NCBI GenBank assembly: GCA_019823025.1 | Contig: CP081940.1 | Span: 186,001 to 250,000, forward strand | DNA: 64,000 nt | DNA from: Methylophilales bacterium | Lineage (GTDB): Bacteria; Pseudomonadota; Gammaproteobacteria; Burkholderiales; Methylophilaceae | Reading direction: 5' to 3' | In this document: positions 34,701 through 45,428 of the stretch, one piece after another | How positions within the stretch are numbered: position 1 is the first letter of the stretch | Layout of the letters: each line of letters opens with the position of its first letter | Notes under the pieces: model-generated | The model's input: the letters and a program-made list of their open reading frames with translations, nothing else | What the model was told of the DNA's origin: nothing | Databases searched by the model: none | Made by a program: the position numbers and the translations under genes

Positions 34701-35381
34701 ATGAAAAAAAATATTTTAAAACAAATATTTCTCGTCTTATCTTTAACACTAACTGCCAATTTATATTCTCAAGAAAATATTAATTGGTCTGGTCCATTTG
34801 TTGGGGTTGATGTCGGCTATACATGGACTAATGATAAAAAAAATAATGCCTCGCGAGATGGGTTTTCTTACCATGCTGAAAATAAAGATAATGGAGGATT
34901 GATTGGGATAAACACTGGTTACAATTTCATGCTCAATGAAAAATGGTTGTTAGGCTTTATAGGTGAATATAAAACATATGATGCACAAGATAGTGATGTT
35001 GATTTAAAAGACGGAGTCCCTGATGACGTTACAACAGTATCTGCAGTTGATCAAAAAGTGTCATTACTGGCAAAACTTGGATACCTGATAGATAGTAAAA
35101 CACTTTTTTTTATCACAGGAGGTTTCGCAACAGCCCAGATGTCACGTCATTATGATGAAGTAACGCCAAATAGAAGCGAAAAACATAAAGATTGGCAAAA
35201 TGGTTGGAGCATTGGATTCGGTAGTGCGTATAATTTCCATGAGAATCTTAGTGCGAACTTAGAATATCGTTATACAGATCTTAGAACAAATGACATTAAT
35301 ATTGCTATGTGGAATAACGCACCTCAACCGCAAAAAGTCAGTCAAGATGAAGTAACTTTTGGCATCACTTACCATTTTTAA
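34701..35381 (+). CDS. Outer-membrane beta-barrel protein (porin/opacity type)
   Basis: A 226-residue protein with a signal peptide (about 1-23). The mature region has alternating hydrophobic strands: 'GPFVGVDVGYTW', 'GGLIGINTGYNFMLNEKWLLGFIGEY', 'VSLLAKLGYLIDSKTLFFITGGFATA', 'NGWSIGFGSAYNFHENLSANLEYRYTDL' and a C-terminal 'VTFGITYHF' ending in phenylalanine. This is an eight-stranded OmpA/opacity-like barrel. The final aromatic residue is the signal for the barrel assembly machine. No peptidoglycan-binding domain. Confidence 0.88.
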   Translation: MKKNILKQIFLVLSLTLTANLYSQENINWSGPFVGVDVGYTWTNDKKNNASRDGFSYHAENKDNGGLIGINTGYNFMLNEKWLLGFIGEYKTYDAQDSDVDLKDGVPDDVTTVSAVDQKVSLLAKLGYLIDSKTLFFITGGFATAQMSRHYDEVTPNRSEKHKDWQNGWSIGFGSAYNFHENLSANLEYRYTDLRTNDINIAMWNNAPQPQKVSQDEVTFGITYHF

Positions 35382-35433: not shown

Positions 35434-36465
35434 ATGATTAAAAAACTTATCAAACTATCTGAAAGCCAACTTTTTCCTGATTGCCTTATTAGATTTGGAA
35501 TTAGGCAACTATTAAAAAAGAGGATAGTTTCACTCGTCGGGCAAGATACAGAAATTAACCATTGGCATAAAATGAATTTTATAGAGGCAATGAATAAATC
35601 AACCATTGCGCTTGTTCCAGAATTGGCTAACGAACAGCATTATGAAGTGCCCTCTAAATTTTATGATTTTTGTTTAGGAAAACAAAAGAAATATAGCTCT
35701 TGTTATTGGACCGATAAAACAAAAAATTTAAATCAATCTGAGAGTGAGGCGCTTGAATTAACCGCAAGCCATGCAAACCTTAAAGACGGCCAACTAATTC
35801 TAGAACTCGGTTGTGGTTGGGGTTCGTTGACGCTGTGGATGGCCAAAAAATATCCAAAAAGTAAGATTACAGCTGTTTCAAATTCAAAATCTCAAAAATT
35901 ATATATATTGAATGAAGCGAAAAAAAGGAAGTTAAAAAATATCAAAGTAATCACCGAGGATATGAATATATTTAACACAAAAGAAAAGTTTGATCGGGTA
36001 ATTTCAGTTGAAATGATTGAGCATATGAGGAACCATAAAAAGCTTTTTAAAAATATTGCAAGCTGGTTAAAGGCCAAGGGAATGTTCTTTATGCACATAT
36101 TTGTCCATCAATCACAGCCCTATTTATTTGAAGTCGAAGAGGATGATGACTGGATGAGCCAATACTTTTTCTCTGGCGGAATGATGCCATCAAAGGACCT
36201 CCCCCTTTACTTCCAAGATCAGATGAAACTCATATCACAATGGGACTGGCCTGGAACTCATTATGAAAAAACAGCCAATGCGTGGCTAGAAAACCTAGAT
36301 AAAAATAAAACTCGTGTATTGCCTATACTAAAAGAAACTTATGGAGAAAAGGATGGAGAGATGTGGCTTCAAAGATGGCGAATCTTTTTTATGGCCTGTG
36401 CCGAATTATGGGGATTCAAGGGAGGTTCGGAGTGGCGGGTTGGACATTATCTGTTTAGAAAATGA
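35434..36465 (+). CDS. CFA synthase-family SAM methyltransferase (first of two)
   Basis: A 343-residue class I methyltransferase related to cyclopropane-fatty-acid synthase and to plant coclaurine N-methyltransferase-like proteins. The SAM motif is 'LILELGCGWGSLTLWMA' (about 130-146), then 'RVISVEMIEHMRNHKKLF' with the acidic Glu-His motif, 'WPGTHYEKTANAWLENLDKN' and the C-terminal 'CAELWGFKGGSEWRVGHYLF'. First gene of a tight plus-strand operon running to 45428; the DUF2878 gene overlaps its stop by 4 bases. Probably modifies an unsaturated acyl chain or an amine, to judge by family. Confidence 0.85.
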   Translation: MIKKLIKLSESQLFPDCLIRFGIRQLLKKRIVSLVGQDTEINHWHKMNFIEAMNKSTIALVPELANEQHYEVPSKFYDFCLGKQKKYSSCYWTDKTKNLNQSESEALELTASHANLKDGQLILELGCGWGSLTLWMAKKYPKSKITAVSNSKSQKLYILNEAKKRKLKNIKVITEDMNIFNTKEKFDRVISVEMIEHMRNHKKLFKNIASWLKAKGMFFMHIFVHQSQPYLFEVEEDDDWMSQYFFSGGMMPSKDLPLYFQDQMKLISQWDWPGTHYEKTANAWLENLDKNKTRVLPILKETYGEKDGEMWLQRWRIFFMACAELWGFKGGSEWRVGHYLFRK

Positions 36466-36974
36466 TCTTTAAAATAATAAATTTTGTTTTATTCCAAGCT
36501 GGGTGGTTTATCGGTGTTTTAGGGGCCTCCTATAATCAAACTTATCTCGCCTTAACACTATCAACAGTTATTTTATTGGTACATTTTGCTATTATAAAAA
36601 ATCGGATTTTAGAGCTTAAACTAATCATCATCGCTGGTTTTATAGGACTTTTATTTGATGGTGCGCTATTGAACTTTGACCTAATTATTTATAATGACCC
36701 AGGTTTACCCTACCCCCTTACCCCCATATGGATTGTAATGCTCTGGATGTTTTTTGCGATGACCCTGAACCATAGCCTAGTATGGCTCAGCCAAAAAATT
36801 TATCTATCTATTCTTTTTGGGGCCTTAGGTGGACCATTGGCTTATATTGCAGGAGAAAAATTAGGTGCAATCACATTGTTAAGTGCAAACTCAATTATTA
36901 CATTAAGTATCGGGTGGGCATTTATTACCCCTGTCTTGTTAATCATTGCAAATAAACTGAATAGAAATGCTTGA
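36462..36974 (+). CDS. DUF2878 membrane protein
   Basis: A 170-residue protein with about five membrane helices and the DUF2878 hallmarks: the N-terminal 'FQAGWFIGVLGA', the central 'GFIGLLFDGALLNFDLIIY', the 'PYPLTPIWIVMLWMFFAMTLNHSLVWL' helix and 'GGPLAYIAGEKLGAI'. Function unknown. It overlaps both neighbours, 4 bases with the methyltransferase and 8 bases with the DUF1295 gene, suggesting translational coupling. DUF2878 genes often accompany DUF1295, DUF1365 and CFA-like genes (from memory). Confidence 0.85.
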   Translation: MIFKIINFVLFQAGWFIGVLGASYNQTYLALTLSTVILLVHFAIIKNRILELKLIIIAGFIGLLFDGALLNFDLIIYNDPGLPYPLTPIWIVMLWMFFAMTLNHSLVWLSQKIYLSILFGALGGPLAYIAGEKLGAITLLSANSIITLSIGWAFITPVLLIIANKLNRNA

Positions 36975-37725
36975 TCTATACATAACGACGCTCATTTATT
37001 TCCTTTCATTCGGCTTTATTGGTTGGATTCTGAGCTTAATATTAAAAAATGTGACTCATGTCGATAGTATGTGGGCCCTATTTCCCCTCCTAGGAACATT
37101 TGTATGTATGCAAACACTGCCATTAAACCTGATGCAGACTCTTTTTTTCTGTTTAATATTTTTGTGGTCTCTAAGATTATTCGCCTACCTAACTAAAAGG
37201 AACTGGGGAAAAGCAGAGGACAGCAGATACCAAGTCATAAGAAAAAATAATGAGCCACTATTTAAGTACAAAAGTTTATACATCATTTTTTGGCTTCAAG
37301 CCTTCATGGCATCCATCCTTATGCTATCGATCATCCCTATTTTCATAAACGATATAACGATAAACACATTGAGCGTAATTGGATTTCTACTCGCCTTCTT
37401 TGGGCTTGCTTATGAGTCTATTGCTGATTGGCAGCTTTCGAATTTCCTCAAAAGTAAGAAAGGGAGTGTTATGAATCAGGGTCTCTGGCGTTACTCAAGA
37501 CATCCGAATTATTTTGGTGAATTTTTAGTTTGGTGGGGTATTTACCTAATTTCATTTAATAGTATATTTTCTGTCACTTTGCTATCCCCCATCCTAATGA
37601 CTCTGCTATTATTAAAAGTATCAGGTGCGGAACTATTAGAGAGCACAATCGTCAATAGAAGACAGGGTTATGCAGAATATATAAAACAAACACCTATGTT
37701 TTTTCCTTGGTTTAGAAAACGATAG
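36967..37725 (+). CDS. DUF1295 steroid-5-alpha-reductase-like membrane protein
   Basis: A 252-residue integral membrane protein with about six helices. The family signature is the C-terminal 'GLWRYSRHPNYFGEFLVWWGIYLI' (about 173-196), the NADPH-binding 'RxSRHPNY' motif seen in steroid 5-alpha reductases and isoprenylcysteine methyltransferases. Preceding it is 'LSNFLKSKKGSVMNQG'. Family members reduce or otherwise act on lipid double bonds, so it could be the reductase of the lipid pathway. Ends with 'YAEYIKQTPMFFPWF', also typical. Confidence 0.85.
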   Translation: MLDLYITTLIYFLSFGFIGWILSLILKNVTHVDSMWALFPLLGTFVCMQTLPLNLMQTLFFCLIFLWSLRLFAYLTKRNWGKAEDSRYQVIRKNNEPLFKYKSLYIIFWLQAFMASILMLSIIPIFINDITINTLSVIGFLLAFFGLAYESIADWQLSNFLKSKKGSVMNQGLWRYSRHPNYFGEFLVWWGIYLISFNSIFSVTLLSPILMTLLLLKVSGAELLESTIVNRRQGYAEYIKQTPMFFPWFRKR

Positions 37726-37761
37726 ATTTAAAAAATAATTAACTTTAAGTATTAAACTTTA

Positions 37762-38277
37762 ATGACTGTTATAAAACACTTTTTTTTAATTTTACTTCTG
37801 ACTGGCTGTGCTATGAAATCTACACAAATTAAAACAGTTGATGAGGTCGATATCAATCGATTTATGGGTGATTGGTATGTCCTTGCCCACATACCTTCCT
37901 ACGTTGAAAAAAATGCTTTTAACGCAGTAGAGTCTTATAAGTTAAATGAAGATGGATCTATAGCAACAACATTTACATTTAACGAGGGATCGCTAGATGG
38001 TCCTGTAAAGACATACCACCCAAAAGGCTTTGTTATCCCAGGAACAAATAATGCTATTTGGGGGATGCAATTTATATGGCCGATCAAAGCTCAATATAAA
38101 ATTGCTTATTTGGACGATGATTACAAAATAACAATCGTTGCTAGAGATAAATTAGATTACGTGTGGTTAATGGCAAGAACCAAGACCCTTCCACACGACC
38201 AAATGATTAAATTTAGAGATATGATCGAGGGAATGGGCTATAGCTTGGAAAACTACAGGGAAATTGAACAAGAATGA
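37762..38277 (+). CDS. Lipocalin-family outer-membrane lipoprotein (Blc-like)
   Basis: A 171-residue lipoprotein with a short signal and lipobox LTGC (Cys14). The lipocalin GxW motif is 'FMGDWYVLAHIPSYVEK' (about 34-50), and the barrel strands include 'AVESYKLNEDGSIATTFTF', 'AQYKIAYLDDDYKITIVARDKLDYVWLMART'. E. coli Blc binds lysophospholipids and fatty acids. In this operon it is likely to carry or store the lipid substrate between the membranes. The desaturase start overlaps its stop by 4 bases. Confidence 0.9.
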   Translation: MTVIKHFFLILLLTGCAMKSTQIKTVDEVDINRFMGDWYVLAHIPSYVEKNAFNAVESYKLNEDGSIATTFTFNEGSLDGPVKTYHPKGFVIPGTNNAIWGMQFIWPIKAQYKIAYLDDDYKITIVARDKLDYVWLMARTKTLPHDQMIKFRDMIEGMGYSLENYREIEQE

Positions 38278-39209
38278 GGCTTATAAATTATTTCTTAGGT
38301 CTTTTTGATAACACCATTGTTGAGAACAAGTATCAAAAATCAATTTTAAAAGAATATGAGGTCGATTGGTTAAGAGTAATTCCTTTTATACTGATTCATT
38401 TAGCCATCTTTACAGTTTTCCTAGTGGGCTTTAGCTACACAGCCCTTTTAGTGTTTTTATTGATGTATAGCATTAGGATGTTTGCTATCACAGGGTTTTA
38501 TCACCGTTATTTCTCTCACAAAGCCTTCAAGACGAGTCGAATAATGCAATTTATTTTTGCGATCATAGGTGCATCGGCTGTTCAGCGAGGACCAATTTGG
38601 TGGGCTGCTCATCATCGTGGCCATCATGTGCATTCAGATACCGAACAAGATAAACACTCTCCAAAGTCACATGGTTTTTTTTGGAGTCACATGGGGTGGT
38701 TCTTATCTAAGGCAAACTTTTTAACCCACCAAAAGTTCGTCAAAGAATTGATCCGATTTCCTGAGTTAAGACTTATAGATAGATTCGATATACTAATTCC
38801 AATTTTGACTTGTGTTGGCCTCTTCTTTTTAGGTCAGCATCTAGGATCAAAATACCCACAATTGTTGACGAATGGATGGCAGCTGGTCGTTTGGGGCTTT
38901 ATCCTATCAACAGTATTGCTTTATCACACCACCTTCTTAGTCAACTCAGTTGCCCATATTTGGGGCAAAAGACGATATAAAACAAAGGACTCAAGTAAGA
39001 ATAATATGTTTATTGCATTTTTAACTTTTGGTGAAGGTTGGCATAACAACCATCATCATTTTCCAGGCTCAGCCAACCAGGGTTTTTATTGGTGGGAAAT
39101 AGATATTACTTATTACATTTTAAAAATTATGTCTTTTTTTGGTTTGATATGGGATATCAGAAAAGTCTCCCCTGCTATTCGCGAATCTAATAAGATAAAC
39201 GCAAAGTAG
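38274..39209 (+). CDS. Acyl desaturase with three histidine boxes
   Basis: A 311-residue membrane desaturase. The three histidine clusters that hold the di-iron site are intact: HRYFSH (residues 77-82), HHRGHH (113-118, within 'WAAHHRGHHVHSDTEQDKHSP') and HNNHHH (257-262, within 'GEGWHNNHHHFPG'). Hydrophobic segments at about 35-65, 170-195 and 203-228 provide the membrane scaffold. The pattern is that of acyl-CoA or acyl-lipid delta-9 desaturases. It would introduce a double bond into an acyl chain using O2 and an electron donor, plausibly providing the alkene that the CFA-like enzymes act on. Confidence 0.93.
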   Translation: MRLINYFLGLFDNTIVENKYQKSILKEYEVDWLRVIPFILIHLAIFTVFLVGFSYTALLVFLLMYSIRMFAITGFYHRYFSHKAFKTSRIMQFIFAIIGASAVQRGPIWWAAHHRGHHVHSDTEQDKHSPKSHGFFWSHMGWFLSKANFLTHQKFVKELIRFPELRLIDRFDILIPILTCVGLFFLGQHLGSKYPQLLTNGWQLVVWGFILSTVLLYHTTFLVNSVAHIWGKRRYKTKDSSKNNMFIAFLTFGEGWHNNHHHFPGSANQGFYWWEIDITYYILKIMSFFGLIWDIRKVSPAIRESNKINAK

Positions 39210-39221
39210 ACTCGCTAATCG

Positions 39222-40457
39222 ATGAAAGTTGCAGTGATTGGCTCAGGTATATCAGGTAACACCCTCGCCTACCTACTGAATAAAAATCACGATGTAACTC
39301 TTTACGAGAAAGATAAACGAATCGGCGGTCACTCTCACACGCATGAAATTGTCTTAAACAATAAAAAAGTAAATGTTGATACCGGGTTCATTGTATTTAA
39401 CAAAAAAACTTATCCTTTGTTTACGTCATTGCTTGATAACCTCGGAGTAAAATATGAGAATAGCAATATGAGCTTTAGTGTTTTTTCAAAAGAAAATAAT
39501 TTTGAATACAATGGCACCACGCTCAATAGCTTATTCTCTCAAAGAAGAAATTTACTAAATCCGAAATTTCTAAAAATGATATTCGAGATTCTTAGATTTA
39601 ACAAAGAGTCTATTAAGCTAAAATCAAAAACCATTCTACTCAAGCAATACTTAAAAAATAACAATTACTCTTCTTATTTCTGCAAAAACTATATTCTTCC
39701 CATGGGCGCAGCAATTTGGTCATCAGATATAAACACCATCCTGAATTTTCCTGCACATTTTTTTATTGATTTCTTTAAAAATCATGGAATGCTTTCAGTC
39801 ACTAATCGGCCTCAATGGTTAACAATTAAGGGTGGCTCCCAGGAGTATGTTAAAAAATTAACCCGAGGTTTTAAAAATAAAATTAGATTGAATAGTAAGA
39901 TTAAGAATATAGTCCGATATAAAAGTTATGTTGTAATTGAGGATAATAAAAGTAAAGAAAAGTTTGATTATGTCTTTTTTGCGTGTCATAGCGATGAGGC
40001 GCTTGAGATTTTAAAAAAACCTACTGCCGATGAGGTTAAAATATTAAGTGCGTTGCCATACCAAAAAAATGACATCATACTTCACACCGATAGCAGCATC
40101 ATGCCTCAAAAAAAGCTATCTTGGGCCGCTTGGAACTATAATATAGATAGCTCAGATGATTCACCCATTACACTTACCTATAATATGAATATTTTACAAA
40201 ATATTAAAACTAAAGAGCCGCTCTTGGTCACCTTAAATCCAAAGCTACCTATCTCAAAAGGTAAAGTAATCAAAAAATTACAATACACTCACCCGAAGTT
40301 TTCGAAATACAGCGTCAGCGCTCAGCTGAAGAATAAAATCATTTCAGGTAAGAATCGAACTTTTTACTCAGGTGCATACTGGGGAAAGGGTTTTCATGAA
40401 GATGGGGTTAAAAGTGCTTACGAAGCAGTAAAAATTTTTGAAGACGTCATCAAGTGA
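39222..40457 (+). CDS. FAD-dependent amine-oxidase-like oxidoreductase
   Basis: A 411-residue flavoprotein. The FAD-binding motif is 'VIGSGISGNTLAYLLNK', followed by the ribose-binding 'LYEKDKRIGGHSHTHEI' and 'NVDTGFIVFNKKTYPLF'. The C-terminal 'YSGAYWGKGFHEDGVKSAYEAVK' closes the FAD site. Proteins of this subgroup are commonly found next to DUF1365 and CFA-like genes, and a desaturation or oxidation of a methylated fatty acyl chain is a plausible role. Twelve bases follow the desaturase stop. Substrate and partner are not proven by sequence. Confidence 0.88.
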   Translation: MKVAVIGSGISGNTLAYLLNKNHDVTLYEKDKRIGGHSHTHEIVLNNKKVNVDTGFIVFNKKTYPLFTSLLDNLGVKYENSNMSFSVFSKENNFEYNGTTLNSLFSQRRNLLNPKFLKMIFEILRFNKESIKLKSKTILLKQYLKNNNYSSYFCKNYILPMGAAIWSSDINTILNFPAHFFIDFFKNHGMLSVTNRPQWLTIKGGSQEYVKKLTRGFKNKIRLNSKIKNIVRYKSYVVIEDNKSKEKFDYVFFACHSDEALEILKKPTADEVKILSALPYQKNDIILHTDSSIMPQKKLSWAAWNYNIDSSDDSPITLTYNMNILQNIKTKEPLLVTLNPKLPISKGKVIKKLQYTHPKFSKYSVSAQLKNKIISGKNRTFYSGAYWGKGFHEDGVKSAYEAVKIFEDVIK

Positions 40458-40461
40458 TCTA

Positions 40462-41193
40462 ATGCATTCAATCTACAAAGGTACGATTTCACACACAAGA
40501 AAAAAAGATGCGCTGCACTCTTTTACCTATTCTACTTCCATGTTATTTCTTGATCTTGATAATATAAAAAGCGCATTTAATCAAAATTTTTTTTGGAGTT
40601 ACGAAAAATTTAATTTAGCGTCTTTCTATAGAAAAGATTTTTTTGGAGATTCTAAAAAATCACTTAAAAGTGAGATAAGAAAATTAGTCACTGGAGAATT
40701 AAACGTCAAAGTAGAAGGTAAAATTTTTCTACTTACCACACTAAGGTATTTTGGGTATTGCTTTAACCCAGTCAGCTTCTACTATTGCTATGACAAAAAA
40801 AAACAATTGGTCGCTATTGTGTCTCACATCACAAATACACCTTGGGATGAGAGGCATGCCTATATCCATGATTGTCGTAAATTAAGGGGTGGGACAAAAA
40901 TATTTGAATTTAAAAAAGACTTTCATGTTTCACCATTCCTTCCTATGAATTTAATATACAAGTGGAAGTTTACAGAACCGAGAGATTTTTTATTTATATC
41001 TATGGAGTGCTCGAAAAATAAAGAAAAATATTTTAACGCGACATTAAAAATGACTAACAAGGCATGGAGTTCTTATGCCCTTAATAAGTTATTATTTTTA
41101 TCATTTCCAATGAGCATCAAAGCAATTGTAAGTATCTATTGGAATGCGTTAATATTATATCTAAAGAAAGTAAGATTTTATCCGCACCCTTAA
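40462..41193 (+). CDS. DUF1365 protein
   Basis: About 243 residues. I take the ATG at 40462, 4 bases after the oxidoreductase stop, because it gives the family start 'HSIYKGTISHTRKKDALHSFTYSTSMLFLDLD'. Characteristic segments are 'FGYCFNPVSFYYCYDKK', 'VSHITNTPWDERHAYI', 'KDFHVSPFLPMNLIYKW' and the C-terminal 'SFPMSIKAIVSIYWNALILYLK'. DUF1365 is a conserved partner of CFA-like genes; no reaction has been assigned to it that I can state. One base separates it from the next methyltransferase. Confidence 0.9.
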   Translation: MHSIYKGTISHTRKKDALHSFTYSTSMLFLDLDNIKSAFNQNFFWSYEKFNLASFYRKDFFGDSKKSLKSEIRKLVTGELNVKVEGKIFLLTTLRYFGYCFNPVSFYYCYDKKKQLVAIVSHITNTPWDERHAYIHDCRKLRGGTKIFEFKKDFHVSPFLPMNLIYKWKFTEPRDFLFISMECSKNKEKYFNATLKMTNKAWSSYALNKLLFLSFPMSIKAIVSIYWNALILYLKKVRFYPHP

Positions 41194-41194
41194 C

Positions 41195-42388
41195 ATGAAT
41201 CATTTATATAAAAAATTAATCCATCAAAGACTAAGTCAGATTAAAGATGCGCACATCAAGATCAAAGATGGAAAAGTAACAAAGCAATATGGCAAATCTG
41301 ACAAATTGTCAGCAAAAATTGAGGTTTTAAACAGCGCCTTTTATAAAAACATCATTTTTGGTGGAACGATTGGGGCAAGTGAATCTTTTATTAGGGGTGA
41401 ATGGAAAAGCCCCAATCTAACAAATGTCATTAGGGTGCTTGCAAAAAATATTGAAGCCCAAGATAAACTTGAAAATTTTTTCACTCTGCTATCTCAACCC
41501 TTCTTAAAAATCATTCATAAACTCAATGAAAATTCAGTCAAGGGAAGTAAAAAGAATATTGCTCGTCATTACGATTTAAGTAATGATTTTTTTAGTTTGT
41601 TCCTTGATAAAAATATGATGTATTCATCGGCGATTTATAAGACAAGGAAAACGAGCCTTGAGCACGCAGCAATTCATAAGCTAGATGTGATTTGTAAAAA
41701 ATTGAACCTTAAAAAAACAGATCATGTTCTTGAGATTGGTACTGGCTGGGGAGGCTTCGCAATATATGCAGCTAAAAATTATGGGTGCAAGGTTACGACA
41801 ACCACGATATCAATCGAGCAATACAAACTTGCAAAACAGAGGGTTAAAGAAGCTGGATTGGTAAGCAAGATAAAGGTTTTATTGAAAGATTACCGTTTAC
41901 TAAAAGGTCGATATGACAAGCTTGTCTCCATTGAAATGATTGAGGCTGTTGGCTATCAATTCTACGATGAGTACTTTAAAAGTATCAGCCAACTTCTAAA
42001 GGATGATGGTGATGCGCTCATTCAAGCAATTACAATTAAAGATCAAAGATACTTTAAAGCGATCAAATCAGTTGATTTTATTCAAAAATATATTTTTCCA
42101 GGTAGCTGCATACCTTCAATTACAGCAATTCAAAATAGCTTAACAAATGTAACCGATCTTGTGATAAATGATATTGAAGATATTGGCCATCACTATGCCA
42201 AAACTTTAGCTGATTGGAGGAAGAAGTTCTTAAAAAACAAACTGGAGATCAAAAGGCTCGGGTTTGATGAACAATTCATAAGGATGTGGTTATTTTATTT
42301 TGCATATTGCGAAGGAGGCTTTGAGGAAAAAGTAATAAGTGATATTCATTTACATATTACCAAGCCAGGCTTTAGAAATACTATATGA
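41195..42388 (+). CDS. CFA synthase-like methyltransferase with altered active site
   Basis: A 397-residue enzyme of the cyclopropane-fatty-acid synthase family: N-terminal lipid-binding domain (about 1-110), then 'NIARHYDLSNDFFSLFLDKNMMYS' and the SAM motif 'VLEIGTGWGGFAIYAA' (about 178-193). Compared with E. coli Cfa, the bicarbonate-site residues Cys139 and His266 become Ser145 and Gln277 here, while the glutamate (Glu250, in 'SIEMIEAVG') and tyrosine ('HYAKTLADW') remain. This pattern, with 'DFIQKYIFPG', marks the subgroup found beside DUF1365. It may transfer a methyl group without closing a cyclopropane ring. Confidence 0.9.
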   Translation: MNHLYKKLIHQRLSQIKDAHIKIKDGKVTKQYGKSDKLSAKIEVLNSAFYKNIIFGGTIGASESFIRGEWKSPNLTNVIRVLAKNIEAQDKLENFFTLLSQPFLKIIHKLNENSVKGSKKNIARHYDLSNDFFSLFLDKNMMYSSAIYKTRKTSLEHAAIHKLDVICKKLNLKKTDHVLEIGTGWGGFAIYAAKNYGCKVTTTTISIEQYKLAKQRVKEAGLVSKIKVLLKDYRLLKGRYDKLVSIEMIEAVGYQFYDEYFKSISQLLKDDGDALIQAITIKDQRYFKAIKSVDFIQKYIFPGSCIPSITAIQNSLTNVTDLVINDIEDIGHHYAKTLADWRKKFLKNKLEIKRLGFDEQFIRMWLFYFAYCEGGFEEKVISDIHLHITKPGFRNTI

Positions 42389-43575
42389 TCAATCCAGATA
42401 AAACTGCTCTTATTATAGGTGCAGGTATTGCAGGTTCGAGCTTAGCTTATCAACTTGCAAAGCGAAACTATCAAGTCACTCTTCTAGATGAAAATAATCA
42501 ACATGAGATCGAAATTTTTCAAAATAAAGCTGCCATGATCTCTCCTCACTTTATGCTGAATAATCCAAAATACAATTCACTTATGAGTAAGGCTTCAAAA
42601 TACGCCTATAATCTTACAAAGGAGTTTAATTATCCTAAAGAGGATGCATTGATGGAGGGTGTAATTAAGCTTTACGAGAATGATATGGCAGATAGACTTA
42701 TTGAAAGAATTGTAAGCATTGGCCTTGAAAAAGCTGATTTTAAGTACCTATCAAAAGATTTAATTAAAAAAAAATATGGTATTAACAATAAAGCAGGTAT
42801 TCTCTTCAAGTATGCTGGTTGGGTATCACCAAATAAAATCTGTTCGAGCCTAATTAACCATAAAAATATTAAGTTAATTCCGAAAAAAAAAGCAAAAGAA
42901 ATTTCTTACAAAAACAATCTGTGGATAGCAAATTGTGATAATTCAAATAAGTATGCCGCATCAAATTTAATCCTTTGTAACTCTTTTGCGCTTAATGAGA
43001 TCAGTCTATTTAAAGACATTGATTTAAAAAAAAATAGAGGTCAAATTAACTGGCTTCCAAGCAAAAAAAAGCATGGCAGTAAGGAGATTATTTCGGATAG
43101 CGGCTATCTCATACCTGATGTTAGTGGTTTTGATGTTTTTGGCTCGACATATGATAGAGATAATGAAAATAAAAATTTATCAATGACTGATTTTGATAAA
43201 AATTTAAAAACCTACCAGAAATTTTCAGGAGATAAGATAAAAGAAAATGATATATCTAATGCAGGTTGGGTTGGGTGGAGAGCAGTTACCCCGGATCGTA
43301 CACCTTATGTAGGTCAACTTCTTGATGAATCAAAGATGATTTGTAACAAACCACGTTCAATTCAAGACTTAAAATGGCATCCCAATCTTTTTATAAACGC
43401 TGGCTATGGATCCAGAGGTTATACATTAGCGCCATTTATATCAAAATGCTTAGCCTCACTGATAGGCGGATCACAGACATCTATTGAAGAAGATCTTTTA
43501 AACTACCTTAACCCTAGCAGAAACTCAATTAAGAAAATGGGACTTAGAAAAAAATTGTTAGAAAACTCAATATGA
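42385..43575 (+). CDS. FAD-dependent oxidoreductase, MnmC C-terminal-domain type
   Basis: A 396-residue flavoprotein of the DAO family. The FAD motif is 'LIIGAGIAGSSLAYQLAKRNYQVTLLDEN' and the C-terminal part, 'GWVGWRAVTPDRTPYVGQL' followed by 'FINAGYGSRGYTLAPFISKCLASLI', is typical of MnmC, which removes the carboxymethyl group of cmnm5s2U34 in tRNA. It lacks the N-terminal MnmD methyltransferase domain entirely, and no mnmD is in the window. Overlaps of 4 bases with the genes before and after put it inside the lipid operon. It could be a tRNA enzyme co-opted by position, or an amine oxidase acting on another substrate. Confidence 0.78.
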   Translation: MINPDKTALIIGAGIAGSSLAYQLAKRNYQVTLLDENNQHEIEIFQNKAAMISPHFMLNNPKYNSLMSKASKYAYNLTKEFNYPKEDALMEGVIKLYENDMADRLIERIVSIGLEKADFKYLSKDLIKKKYGINNKAGILFKYAGWVSPNKICSSLINHKNIKLIPKKKAKEISYKNNLWIANCDNSNKYAASNLILCNSFALNEISLFKDIDLKKNRGQINWLPSKKKHGSKEIISDSGYLIPDVSGFDVFGSTYDRDNENKNLSMTDFDKNLKTYQKFSGDKIKENDISNAGWVGWRAVTPDRTPYVGQLLDESKMICNKPRSIQDLKWHPNLFINAGYGSRGYTLAPFISKCLASLIGGSQTSIEEDLLNYLNPSRNSIKKMGLRKKLLENSI

Positions 43576-45428
43576 CAAACAAACTAATTTCTGAAGCAAA
43601 AGCAAAAGAAAAAGATGGAGATATCTTAGGTGCAATTGATCTTTATAAAGTTGCATTGCGAGAAGATTCGAGAAATGTTTTCTTACAAATTGAAATTGGA
43701 AACTTGTATGCGATCATTGAGGAATATGAAGAGGCCGCTGGTTTTTTTAGAAGAAGTCACCATGTGTTAAAAGATAACCCTCATGTGATTGATGCATTAA
43801 ACTTTTGTCTAAACAAGATTGGAAATAGCTACTTTATTAATAGAGAATTTAAACTAGCTGCGAACACATTTAAAGAGGCGCTTAGTTACGATACAAATAA
43901 TTCAACTACACTGTTCAATTTCGGAAACGCCCTATTTCATCAAAATAAATATGATGAGGCAATTAAGGCATACAACTTATCACTTAAAATTAAACCTGAC
44001 CCCAATACCTTTAACAATTTAGGTAACGCACTCCAAAGAATATTAAAGACAGAGGAAGCAATTAGTGCTTATGAAAAAGCCCTTTTAATCAATCCTGACT
44101 TGATACACACATTCATCCAATTGGTTCATCTCAAACAAAGCATATGTTCTTGGGATAGTATTGATGAAATGTTCGCACAAATCAAAAAATTAACAGAAAA
44201 ACAAATGAAGGGAAAAATTTCACCCTTCGCCTTATTTTCGATGCCAAATATTTCAAATATTAGTCACTTAAATGTAGCAAACTCATGGGTAAAGCAATCT
44301 GGAATAAATATTTTACAAAAGCCTAAACAAAAAAATTCGGGCAAAATTACTATCGGATATCTATCATCAGATTTTAGGTTGCACCCGCTATATTATCTAA
44401 TTAAAGATGTTTTGATCAATCATGATCGAAATAAATTTAACGTTAAGCTTTTTTACTCAGGGCCAGACGATGGTTCAAAAGAATTAGATGAATTTAAAGG
44501 TATTGGTGATGCATATTTCAATATCACAGAGATGAGTGATGAAAAAGTGTCAGGATTAATGGTCAAGGAAAACGTTGATATTATGGTTGATCTGACAGGT
44601 TTTACACAAAATAGTCGATCATTTATTGCGGCATTAAGGCCAGCAACACACCATATAAATTGGCTCGGTTATCCAGGTACCATGGGTAGTTTAGATAAAA
44701 ACCCACTTTACGATCTCATTCTTGCTGATGAATATATTATTCCAAAATCTAAAAAAAGCGAATACGCTGAGAAAGTTATCTATTTAAAAGGTTGTTATCA
44801 ACCTAATATATCTTCTAGACCTATCCTAAGATCTGTTAAGAAATTAGATTATGGCTTTAAGGAAAATGATTTTATCTTTGCCTCATTTGGGCAGTCACTT
44901 AAGATTACAAAGCAAATGTTTTCAATATGGATGCGATTAATGCAAAAGGTCCCCAATTCCGTCTTATGGTTGTTAACATCAAATAAAACTTGCGAAAGCA
45001 ATCAAAAAAGCTTTGCTAAAAATGAATTTGGAATACAACCAGAAAGAATAAATTTTGCCAAGAAAGTTAGCTTTGACGCTCACATACAAAGACATCAAAT
45101 TATAGATCTCTTTCTTGACACATTCCCCTACAATGCACACACATCTACTAGTGACGCCTTATGGGCAGGGTGTCCTATCATTTCAGTCTCAGGTGAAACT
45201 TTTGCTAGCAGAGTTGCTGGGAGCATTCTCACCGAAATCGGCTGCTCAGAATTAATCGTTTCCTCATTTGAAGAATATGAGAAAAAGGCAATTGAATTAG
45301 CTTCTAATCCAGATAAAATTATTTCTCTAAAACGAAAGATATTAGATTTAAAAAAAACAAGCAGCCTATTCAAACCGAAAAAATTTACACTTGACTTAGA
45401 AGACAAAATGATCGACCTTATGAATTAA
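43572..45428 (+). CDS. TPR plus GT41 (SPINDLY/OGT-like) glycosyltransferase
   Basis: A 618-residue protein. About five to six tetratricopeptide repeats occupy residues 1-210 ('LLISEAKAKEKDGDILGAIDLYKVALRED', 'NTFNNLGNALQRILKTEEAISAYEKALLINPD'). The C-terminal half matches the O-GlcNAc/O-fucosyl transferase fold: 'KITIGYLSSDFRLHPLYYL', 'VDLTGFTQNSR', 'HINWLGYPGTMGS', 'FASFGQSLKITKQMFSIWMRLMQKVP-S' and 'YNAHTSTSDALWAGCPI'. It would transfer a sugar onto protein Ser/Thr. It ends the operon and overlaps the convergent miaA stop by 11 bases. Confidence 0.9.
   Translation: MTNKLISEAKAKEKDGDILGAIDLYKVALREDSRNVFLQIEIGNLYAIIEEYEEAAGFFRRSHHVLKDNPHVIDALNFCLNKIGNSYFINREFKLAANTFKEALSYDTNNSTTLFNFGNALFHQNKYDEAIKAYNLSLKIKPDPNTFNNLGNALQRILKTEEAISAYEKALLINPDLIHTFIQLVHLKQSICSWDSIDEMFAQIKKLTEKQMKGKISPFALFSMPNISNISHLNVANSWVKQSGINILQKPKQKNSGKITIGYLSSDFRLHPLYYLIKDVLINHDRNKFNVKLFYSGPDDGSKELDEFKGIGDAYFNITEMSDEKVSGLMVKENVDIMVDLTGFTQNSRSFIAALRPATHHINWLGYPGTMGSLDKNPLYDLILADEYIIPKSKKSEYAEKVIYLKGCYQPNISSRPILRSVKKLDYGFKENDFIFASFGQSLKITKQMFSIWMRLMQKVPNSVLWLLTSNKTCESNQKSFAKNEFGIQPERINFAKKVSFDAHIQRHQIIDLFLDTFPYNAHTSTSDALWAGCPIISVSGETFASRVAGSILTEIGCSELIVSSFEEYEKKAIELASNPDKIISLKRKILDLKKTSSLFKPKKFTLDLEDKMIDLMN

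Follow-up and report, generated by a model that had tools for sequence, protein, structure and literature searches.

What does a bacterium make with ten tightly packed genes that combine two methyltransferases, a lipocalin and a membrane desaturase with a tRNA-modification oxidase and a glycosyltransferase? The genes (g01 to g10, all on the plus strand) occupy positions 35434-45428 of the window, by which we mean the whole analysed stretch of 64,000 nucleotides from a Methylophilales bacterium (GCA_019823025.1, contig CP081940.1, positions 186,001 to 250,000). A sequence-only reading had described them as an acyl-lipid modification cluster reminiscent of the furan fatty acid pathway. The protein families and the match to that pathway bear out lipid modification, and the resemblance proved stronger than had been claimed: g06, g07 and g08 match the three furan-forming enzymes in the order found in Rhodopseudomonas palustris. 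From these comparisons we consider it likely that the run includes an operon for furan fatty acids that modifies the acyl chains of membrane phospholipids. Such fatty acids are antioxidants of fish oil, plants and some bacteria that protect against damage by light and oxygen, and their natural producers are poorly mapped.

In the published pathway, UfaM, UfaD and UfaO convert phospholipid cis-vaccenate to a methylated trans-monoene, a methylated diene and a furan, in that order; UfaO bears a DUF1365 domain, and FufM, the 9M5-FuFA methylase, adds a second methyl group. These reactions are reported for Rhodobacter sphaeroides and R. palustris (Lemke et al. 2020, PMC7380195; this and the other papers cited here are drawn on as excerpts). 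UfaM, UfaD and UfaO are RSP2144, RSP1091 and RSP1090 in R. sphaeroides, and the R. palustris order is RPA2571 (D), RPA2570 (O) and RPA2569 (M) (PMC7380195). In the window, g06-g07-g08 match ufaD-ufaO-ufaM by Pfam family and gene order. The UfaD-type g06 (39222-40457, amine oxidase/NAD_binding_8) encodes an FAD-dependent oxidoreductase predicted to turn a methylated monoene into a diene. The UfaO-type g07 (40438-41193) encodes a DUF1365 protein (238 bits, cut-off 25) predicted to close the furan ring with O2. The UfaM-type g08 (41195-42388, 283 bits against Pfam CMAS) encodes a methylase dependent on S-adenosylmethionine (SAM) and resembling cyclopropane fatty acid (CFA) synthase, which would act on cis-monounsaturated acyl chains. 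The NAD_binding_8/Amino_oxidase gene g06 directly precedes the DUF1365 gene, and we take published UfaD itself to be an FAD-type protein. We rejected g05, which the earlier reading had taken for the desaturase of the furan pathway, as UfaD because published UfaD (RSP1091/RPA2571) adjoins the DUF1365 gene, as g06 does here; g05 is a separate membrane desaturase. The enzyme set is that of R. palustris and R. sphaeroides, but the window adds a desaturase, a lipocalin, DUF1295, DUF2878 and a second methylase in one run.

Among solved proteins, CFA synthases match g08 ahead of coclaurine N-methyltransferase. We take Cys139, Glu239, His266, Ile268 and Tyr317 to be the bicarbonate-site residues of Escherichia coli CFA. 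Aligned with the K-12 enzyme, g08 keeps Glu239, Ile268 and Tyr317, but Cys139 is replaced by Ser, His240 by Ala and His266 by Gln; with Ser139 and Gln266 it lacks the complete bicarbonate site. Four solved cyclopropane-type relatives have His at both 240 and 266. We compared 60 UfaM-type proteins, namely g08, six encoded at named plasmid loci and those scoring >400 bits among the 80 outside loci described below: position 266 is Gln in all 60, and position 240 is Ala in 59. A cyclopropane synthase identity of g08 was rejected because its active-site positions differ from those of the four solved relatives. In E. coli, a Halomonas UfaM whose gene adjoins ufaD and ufaO is reported to produce 11-methyloctadec-12-enoate (PMC12089945).

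Genome contigs were scanned with nine g01 sequences, and the best 80 of 567 relatives were kept as outside loci. Genes in them were called with hidden Markov models from the family and plasmid loci, at thresholds of 100 bits, or 60 bits for short families and MerR. By title, with labels of metagenome-assembled genomes unchecked, these 80 loci belong to Pseudomonadota, Bacteroidota, Planctomycetota, Verrucomicrobia/Opitutia, Marinimicrobia, Nitrospirota, Cyanobacteria, Ignavibacteriales, Bacteriovoracaceae and others. DUF1295 is present in 63, the UfaD type in 60, and UfaO and the UfaM type in 56 each; 55 have the full Ufa trio. The remaining counts are DUF2878 40, desaturase 30, lipocalin 27, DUF6134 25, MerR 11, photolyase 9, extracytoplasmic function (ECF) sigma 7, and ChrR, MnmC and GT41 3 each. 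Wherever all three Ufa genes occur (55/55) they stand as D-O-M on one strand, under seven phylum-level labels from Pseudomonadota through Cyanobacteria. A similar set is seen in widely differing bacteria, along with additional genes suggestive of further steps. With the eight loci taken as Methylophilaceae (L123-L129 and L133) excluded, 39 loci have at least 6 kb on both flanks, and of these 33 carry all three Ufa genes and 34 DUF1295. Several Bacteroidota-labelled loci (L163, L165, L166, L167 and L196 among others) read g01-UfaD-UfaO-UfaM with nothing recognised between. When the whole genomes behind the 25 loci without the full trio were searched, DUF1365 was found in 20, so that 75 of the 80 g01-relative loci have DUF1365 in the locus or in the genome (55 full-trio loci plus 20 genomes). 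In an even phylum sample of 299 genomes, DUF1365 accompanies DUF2878 in 60 of 61 genomes and DUF1295 (at least 100 bits) in 35 of 41, one below-cut-off DUF2878 match and two short DUF1365 matches having been removed before counting. DUF1295 and DUF2878 travel with the furan pathway. Large parts of the cluster are also found on plasmids of Acinetobacter, Rhizobium tropici, Mesorhizobium terrae and Legionella lytica (L074, L075, L077 and L079), the L. lytica plasmid locus having no recognised g01 relative.

Within the family of the window's organism, the Methylophilaceae, DUF2878 occurs in 103 of 150 genomes. In 25 of 40 family neighbourhoods, tallied by eye, g01, DUF2878, DUF1295, lipocalin, desaturase, UfaD, UfaO and UfaM follow one another in that order; several of the remaining stretches end at contig ends. 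Most family loci have an extra gene of about 207 amino acids after DUF1295 (DUF6134 in the one checked), for which the window has no space. Among 35 chosen genomes, the 30 with DUF1365 are the same 30 that have DUF2878. In seven genomes of the window's genus (L034-L038, L041 and L046, paired with L097-L103) the cluster is split between genes 1-3 and genes 4-8, and in the five that consist of a single contig the two parts are separated by 70-93 kb. These seven had first shown only genes 1-3 and the ~207-amino acid gene, as if genes 1-3 were free of the furan pathway; that idea was rejected when a whole-genome search found DUF1365 in all seven. The same clade encodes a protein of 237-238 amino acids between UfaM and MnmC (L097:11216-11929, with similar open reading frames (ORFs) in L098-L103), for which no Pfam match was found in L097.

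The first gene, g01 (35434-36465), encodes a second SAM methyltransferase of the CMAS superfamily. The sequence-only reading was right to call both methylases CFA-type, but they fall on separate branches: g08 lacks active-site residues kept by the four solved cyclopropane-type enzymes, and the best solved match of g01 is coclaurine N-methyltransferase, at 226 bits against 88 bits for CFA synthases, the reverse of g08. Glu-His at 239-240, His266 and Phe268 are present in 85/85 sequences of g01 and its relatives. FufM of R. palustris (RPA0924) is likewise a distant member of the CFA superfamily, 26% identical to R. sphaeroides UfaM (PMC7380195), and Arabidopsis LIME1 is reported to be 38% identical to FufM (PMC10940516). 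With 25% identity to g08, g01 is similarly far from a UfaM, and it co-occurs with UfaM, UfaD and UfaO genes. If LIME1 is of the coclaurine type, as we assume, its kinship with FufM fits the best solved match of g01. The two differ in setting, g01 being clustered with the ufa genes and RPA0924, by its gene number, lying apart from them. On this evidence it is somewhat likely that g01 is FufM and adds the second methyl group to the furan ring.

Genes 2-5 can be given candidate accessory roles. g02 (36462-36974) encodes a DUF2878 membrane protein whose predicted fold has a weak Insig-like match. For g03 (36967-37725), a DUF1295 protein, the best Z scores of the predicted fold are to steroid and sterol reductases, with ICMT matching too; this predicted fold would place it in one group with the steroid 5-alpha-reductase PbSRD5A (7c83) and delta(14)-sterol reductase (4quv). 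The Asp, Asn and Glu of an SRD5A2 stretch, residues that we presume to have roles in that enzyme, are conserved in DUF1295, and g03 is a candidate NADPH-dependent C=C reductase. g04 (37762-38277) encodes a lipocalin of the Blc type, in which a lipobox-like LLTGC was seen by eye, and is a candidate carrier of lipid, perhaps modified lipid. g05 (38274-39209, Pfam FA_desaturase), with histidine boxes HRYFSH, HRGHH and HNNHH read by eye, is a candidate supplier of monounsaturated acyl substrate.

We propose that a cis-monounsaturated chain, supplied by g05 or by ordinary synthesis, would be converted by g08 and SAM to a methylated trans-monoene, by g06 to a methylated conjugated diene and by g07 and O2 to a furan, with g01 adding a further methyl to the ring. 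As accessory proteins, the lipocalin would see to carriage, DUF1295 to a reductive step and DUF2878 to membrane lipid handling. If 16:1 omega-7, presumably a main chain in this family, is a main substrate, C16 analogues 7M5 and 7D5 would be formed beside 9M5 and 9D5 from 18:1 omega-7. In a cell living in sunlit water, the furan would scavenge singlet oxygen and radicals and be sacrificed in doing so. We infer that the window's proteins perform reactions identical to the published ones, and likewise what genes 1-5 do, where the organism lives and that the lipid protects it. The source genome is a single 1.34-Mb contig with a completeness of 96.8%; small-genome pelagic Methylophilaceae have been described (PMC6794327), and the organism may be kin to OM43 or Methylopumilus. 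The complete set in small-genome Methylophilaceae, together with D-O-M under seven labels, suggests that bacteria may be a larger source of furan fatty acids than the few tested strains show, and g01 becomes a candidate for the second methylation, DUF1295 for a reductive or repair step and DUF2878 for the handling of lipid.

Judged by its sequences, the run would be the known pathway in extended form, with the putative reductase as its interesting part. Furan acids are reported to react with peroxyl radicals to give dioxoenes (PMC2914009). In a repair cycle, singlet oxygen or peroxyl radicals would convert the furan chain to an ene-dione (dioxoene) chain, DUF1295 would reduce this to a saturated 1,4-dione, and loss of water would restore the furan, with damaged chains held or moved by the Insig-like DUF2878 and the lipocalin. 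The last step would be of the Paal-Knorr type, in which a 1,4-dione closes to a furan. This idea draws on the predicted fold, co-occurrence and known chemistry; we regard as a long shot a renewable, NADPH-driven antioxidant lipid system in which the pathway mends its own scavenger rather than consuming it.

Several observations weigh against the furan reading. The link to the tested R. sphaeroides and R. palustris enzymes is indirect, running through family, order and neighbourhood, and the proposal of g01 as FufM is likewise indirect. Because related genomes are among the outside loci, their counts do not represent independent events. DUF1365 was not found in five of the 25 re-searched genomes (L138, L180, L184, L188 and L201), three of which (L180, L184 and L188) have a UfaD-type match within the same short locus. 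The residue changes in g08 would be a marker of the UfaM type and no proof of its reaction, and position 139 is Ser in just 40 of the 60 UfaM-type proteins. No ChrR cupin match (PF12973, E 0.001) was found in the 96.8% complete source genome (G000), and its three sigma-70 region-2 matches, an RpoD-sized protein (656-amino acid frame), RpoH, and RpoE followed by an RseA-like protein, include no ChrR-type sigma. Finally, the best NCBIfam models for g08 are cyclopropane synthases, at scores below their cut-offs (290 of 600 and 280 of 400 bits).

The last point would suit a pathway to cyclopropane or methyl-branched chains without furans, in which g01 and g08 are CFA synthases and g03 and g06 reduce or oxidise their products. 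Both methylases match CMAS, DUF1295 has a reductase-like fold, and E. coli carrying the Halomonas UfaM contained cyclic chains beside the methylated monoene, albeit with its own cfa present (PMC12089945). Such a pathway leaves aside the DUF1365 protein, a domain carried by the furan-making UfaO (PMC7380195), the departures of g08 from its four solved relatives, and the greater closeness of g01 to N-methyltransferases, and we think it improbable. Somewhat less so, though still unlikely, is a reading of genes 1-3 as a unit of their own for modifying lipids or isoprenoids, placed next to the furan operon by chance, g01 then not being FufM. The seven split genomes, the nearness of g01 to amine N-methyltransferases and the lack of UfaD, UfaO and UfaM from five of the 39 well-flanked loci outside the Methylophilaceae all point that way. 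Yet the split genomes retain both parts, the five exceptional loci (L144, L155, L168, L186 and L198) all lie in genomes with DUF1365, and the Bacteroidota-labelled loci place g01 directly before UfaD-UfaO-UfaM.

A furan operon would account for eight of the ten genes, and the last two raise the further question of whether all ten serve one pathway, with an MnmC-like oxidase and a GT41 transferase acting on the lipid or on a lipid-linked protein. g09 (42385-43575, Pfam DAO) encodes the MnmC oxidoreductase domain alone, which acts on the tRNA wobble uridine, and g10 (43572-45428) encodes tetratricopeptide repeats and a GT41 glycosyltransferase, the sole GT41 gene found in the source genome. The overlap of g09 with each neighbour by 4 bases speaks for a single pathway, as does the presence of GT41 in 19 of the 40 family loci (MnmC 14/40, UfaM 29/40, by eye). 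Against it, g09 scores above the cut-off for the NCBIfam MnmC oxidase domain TIGR03197 (245 bits, cut-off 174), and the matching methyltransferase half (PF05430) exists in all four larger-genome relatives, either in its own frame of 279-282 amino acids or within one of 667-681, although it is found in none of nine small family genomes, the source (no match, E 0.001) included. MnmC and GT41 are paired near 880 kb in the relative G020, where about 286 kb separates them from the DUF1365 gene; six loci of the window's genus lack MnmC yet retain the rest; and neither gene passed 100 bits among the best 80 of 567 loci outside the eight taken as Methylophilaceae. One pathway of ten genes is thus very improbable. 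The sequence-only reading had remarked that these two genes extend the cluster beyond its usual members: within the family they are inherited neighbours of it, and at 100 bits neither was found among the outside loci beyond those taken as Methylophilaceae, but with the pair standing apart in G020 they are probably an old neighbouring pair with other tasks, passengers on the transcript that would serve tRNA modification and, probably, protein glycosylation. Without the methyltransferase half, modification of the tRNA wobble uridine may go no further than nm5.

How would the furan operon be regulated? The earlier reading had associated such genes with photolyase, ECF sigma factor and ChrR. That company is found in loci of other bacteria: plasmid relatives carry rpoE-chrR in Rhizobium tropici and Mesorhizobium terrae, and photolyase in Acinetobacter, Cupriavidus, Salinivibrio and Legionella lytica. 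It does not hold here, where ChrR and a ChrR-type sigma were not found in the genome and the three photolyase-type matches (PF03441) all lie outside the window, in contrast to the Sigma-E/ChrR core regulon, in which the same lipid genes adjoin rpoE-chrR. A promoter for a ChrR-type sigma was rejected as the local switch because no such regulators were found in the genome; a FliA identity of the third sigma match, suggested by its length, was also rejected, the gene reading as RpoE with an RseA-like protein next to it. In R. sphaeroides, furan fatty acid synthesis genes are reported to be required for ChrR turnover in response to singlet oxygen (PMC6852236). That loop cannot run here as described, because no ChrR match was found in the genome, and such a ChrR-free set keeps the lipid's protective function apart from the signalling one that it has in R. 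sphaeroides. Light offers another route elsewhere. LitR homologues are reported to take part in the light-inducible expression of ufaM in Pseudomonas putida, where ufaM is among LitR-dependent light-inducible genes, and in P. mendocina the pmlR1 region contains ufaM (PMC9758184). The MerR proteins of the 11 outside loci adjoin the g01 relative, and the three tested (L129, L131 and L152, upstream of g01 relatives) have B12-binding domains like those of LitR and CarH; no MerR regulator stands next to g01 in the window.

The architecture of the run is consistent with one transcript. The ORFs are complete, and the largest intergenic gap is 36 bases. From g01 to g10 the junctions measure -4, -8, 36, -4, 12, -20, 1, -4 and -4 bases (negative values are overlaps), which confirms the 4-base overlaps at four junctions that the sequence-only reading had counted in its ten-gene run. 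The -20 overlap of g07 with g06 uses a TTG start; an ATG 24 bases downstream would make that gap +4. By longest-ORF starts, two close relatives (L044 and L048, with 77-95% identity in the ten proteins) keep all four -4 junctions, and L052 keeps three of them. The scan for promoters and terminators decides nothing on transcript limits, because promoter-like sites (32) are fewer than in shuffles (mean 50.1) and terminator-like sites (6 against 6.5) are at chance level. In this clade the transcript may begin before 35434, with u1, an outer-membrane beta-barrel protein gene (34701-35381, plus strand), as its first gene, since u1 ends 52 bases ahead of g01. A barrel gene of the u1 type likewise stands 52 and 48 bases upstream of g01 in two close relatives.

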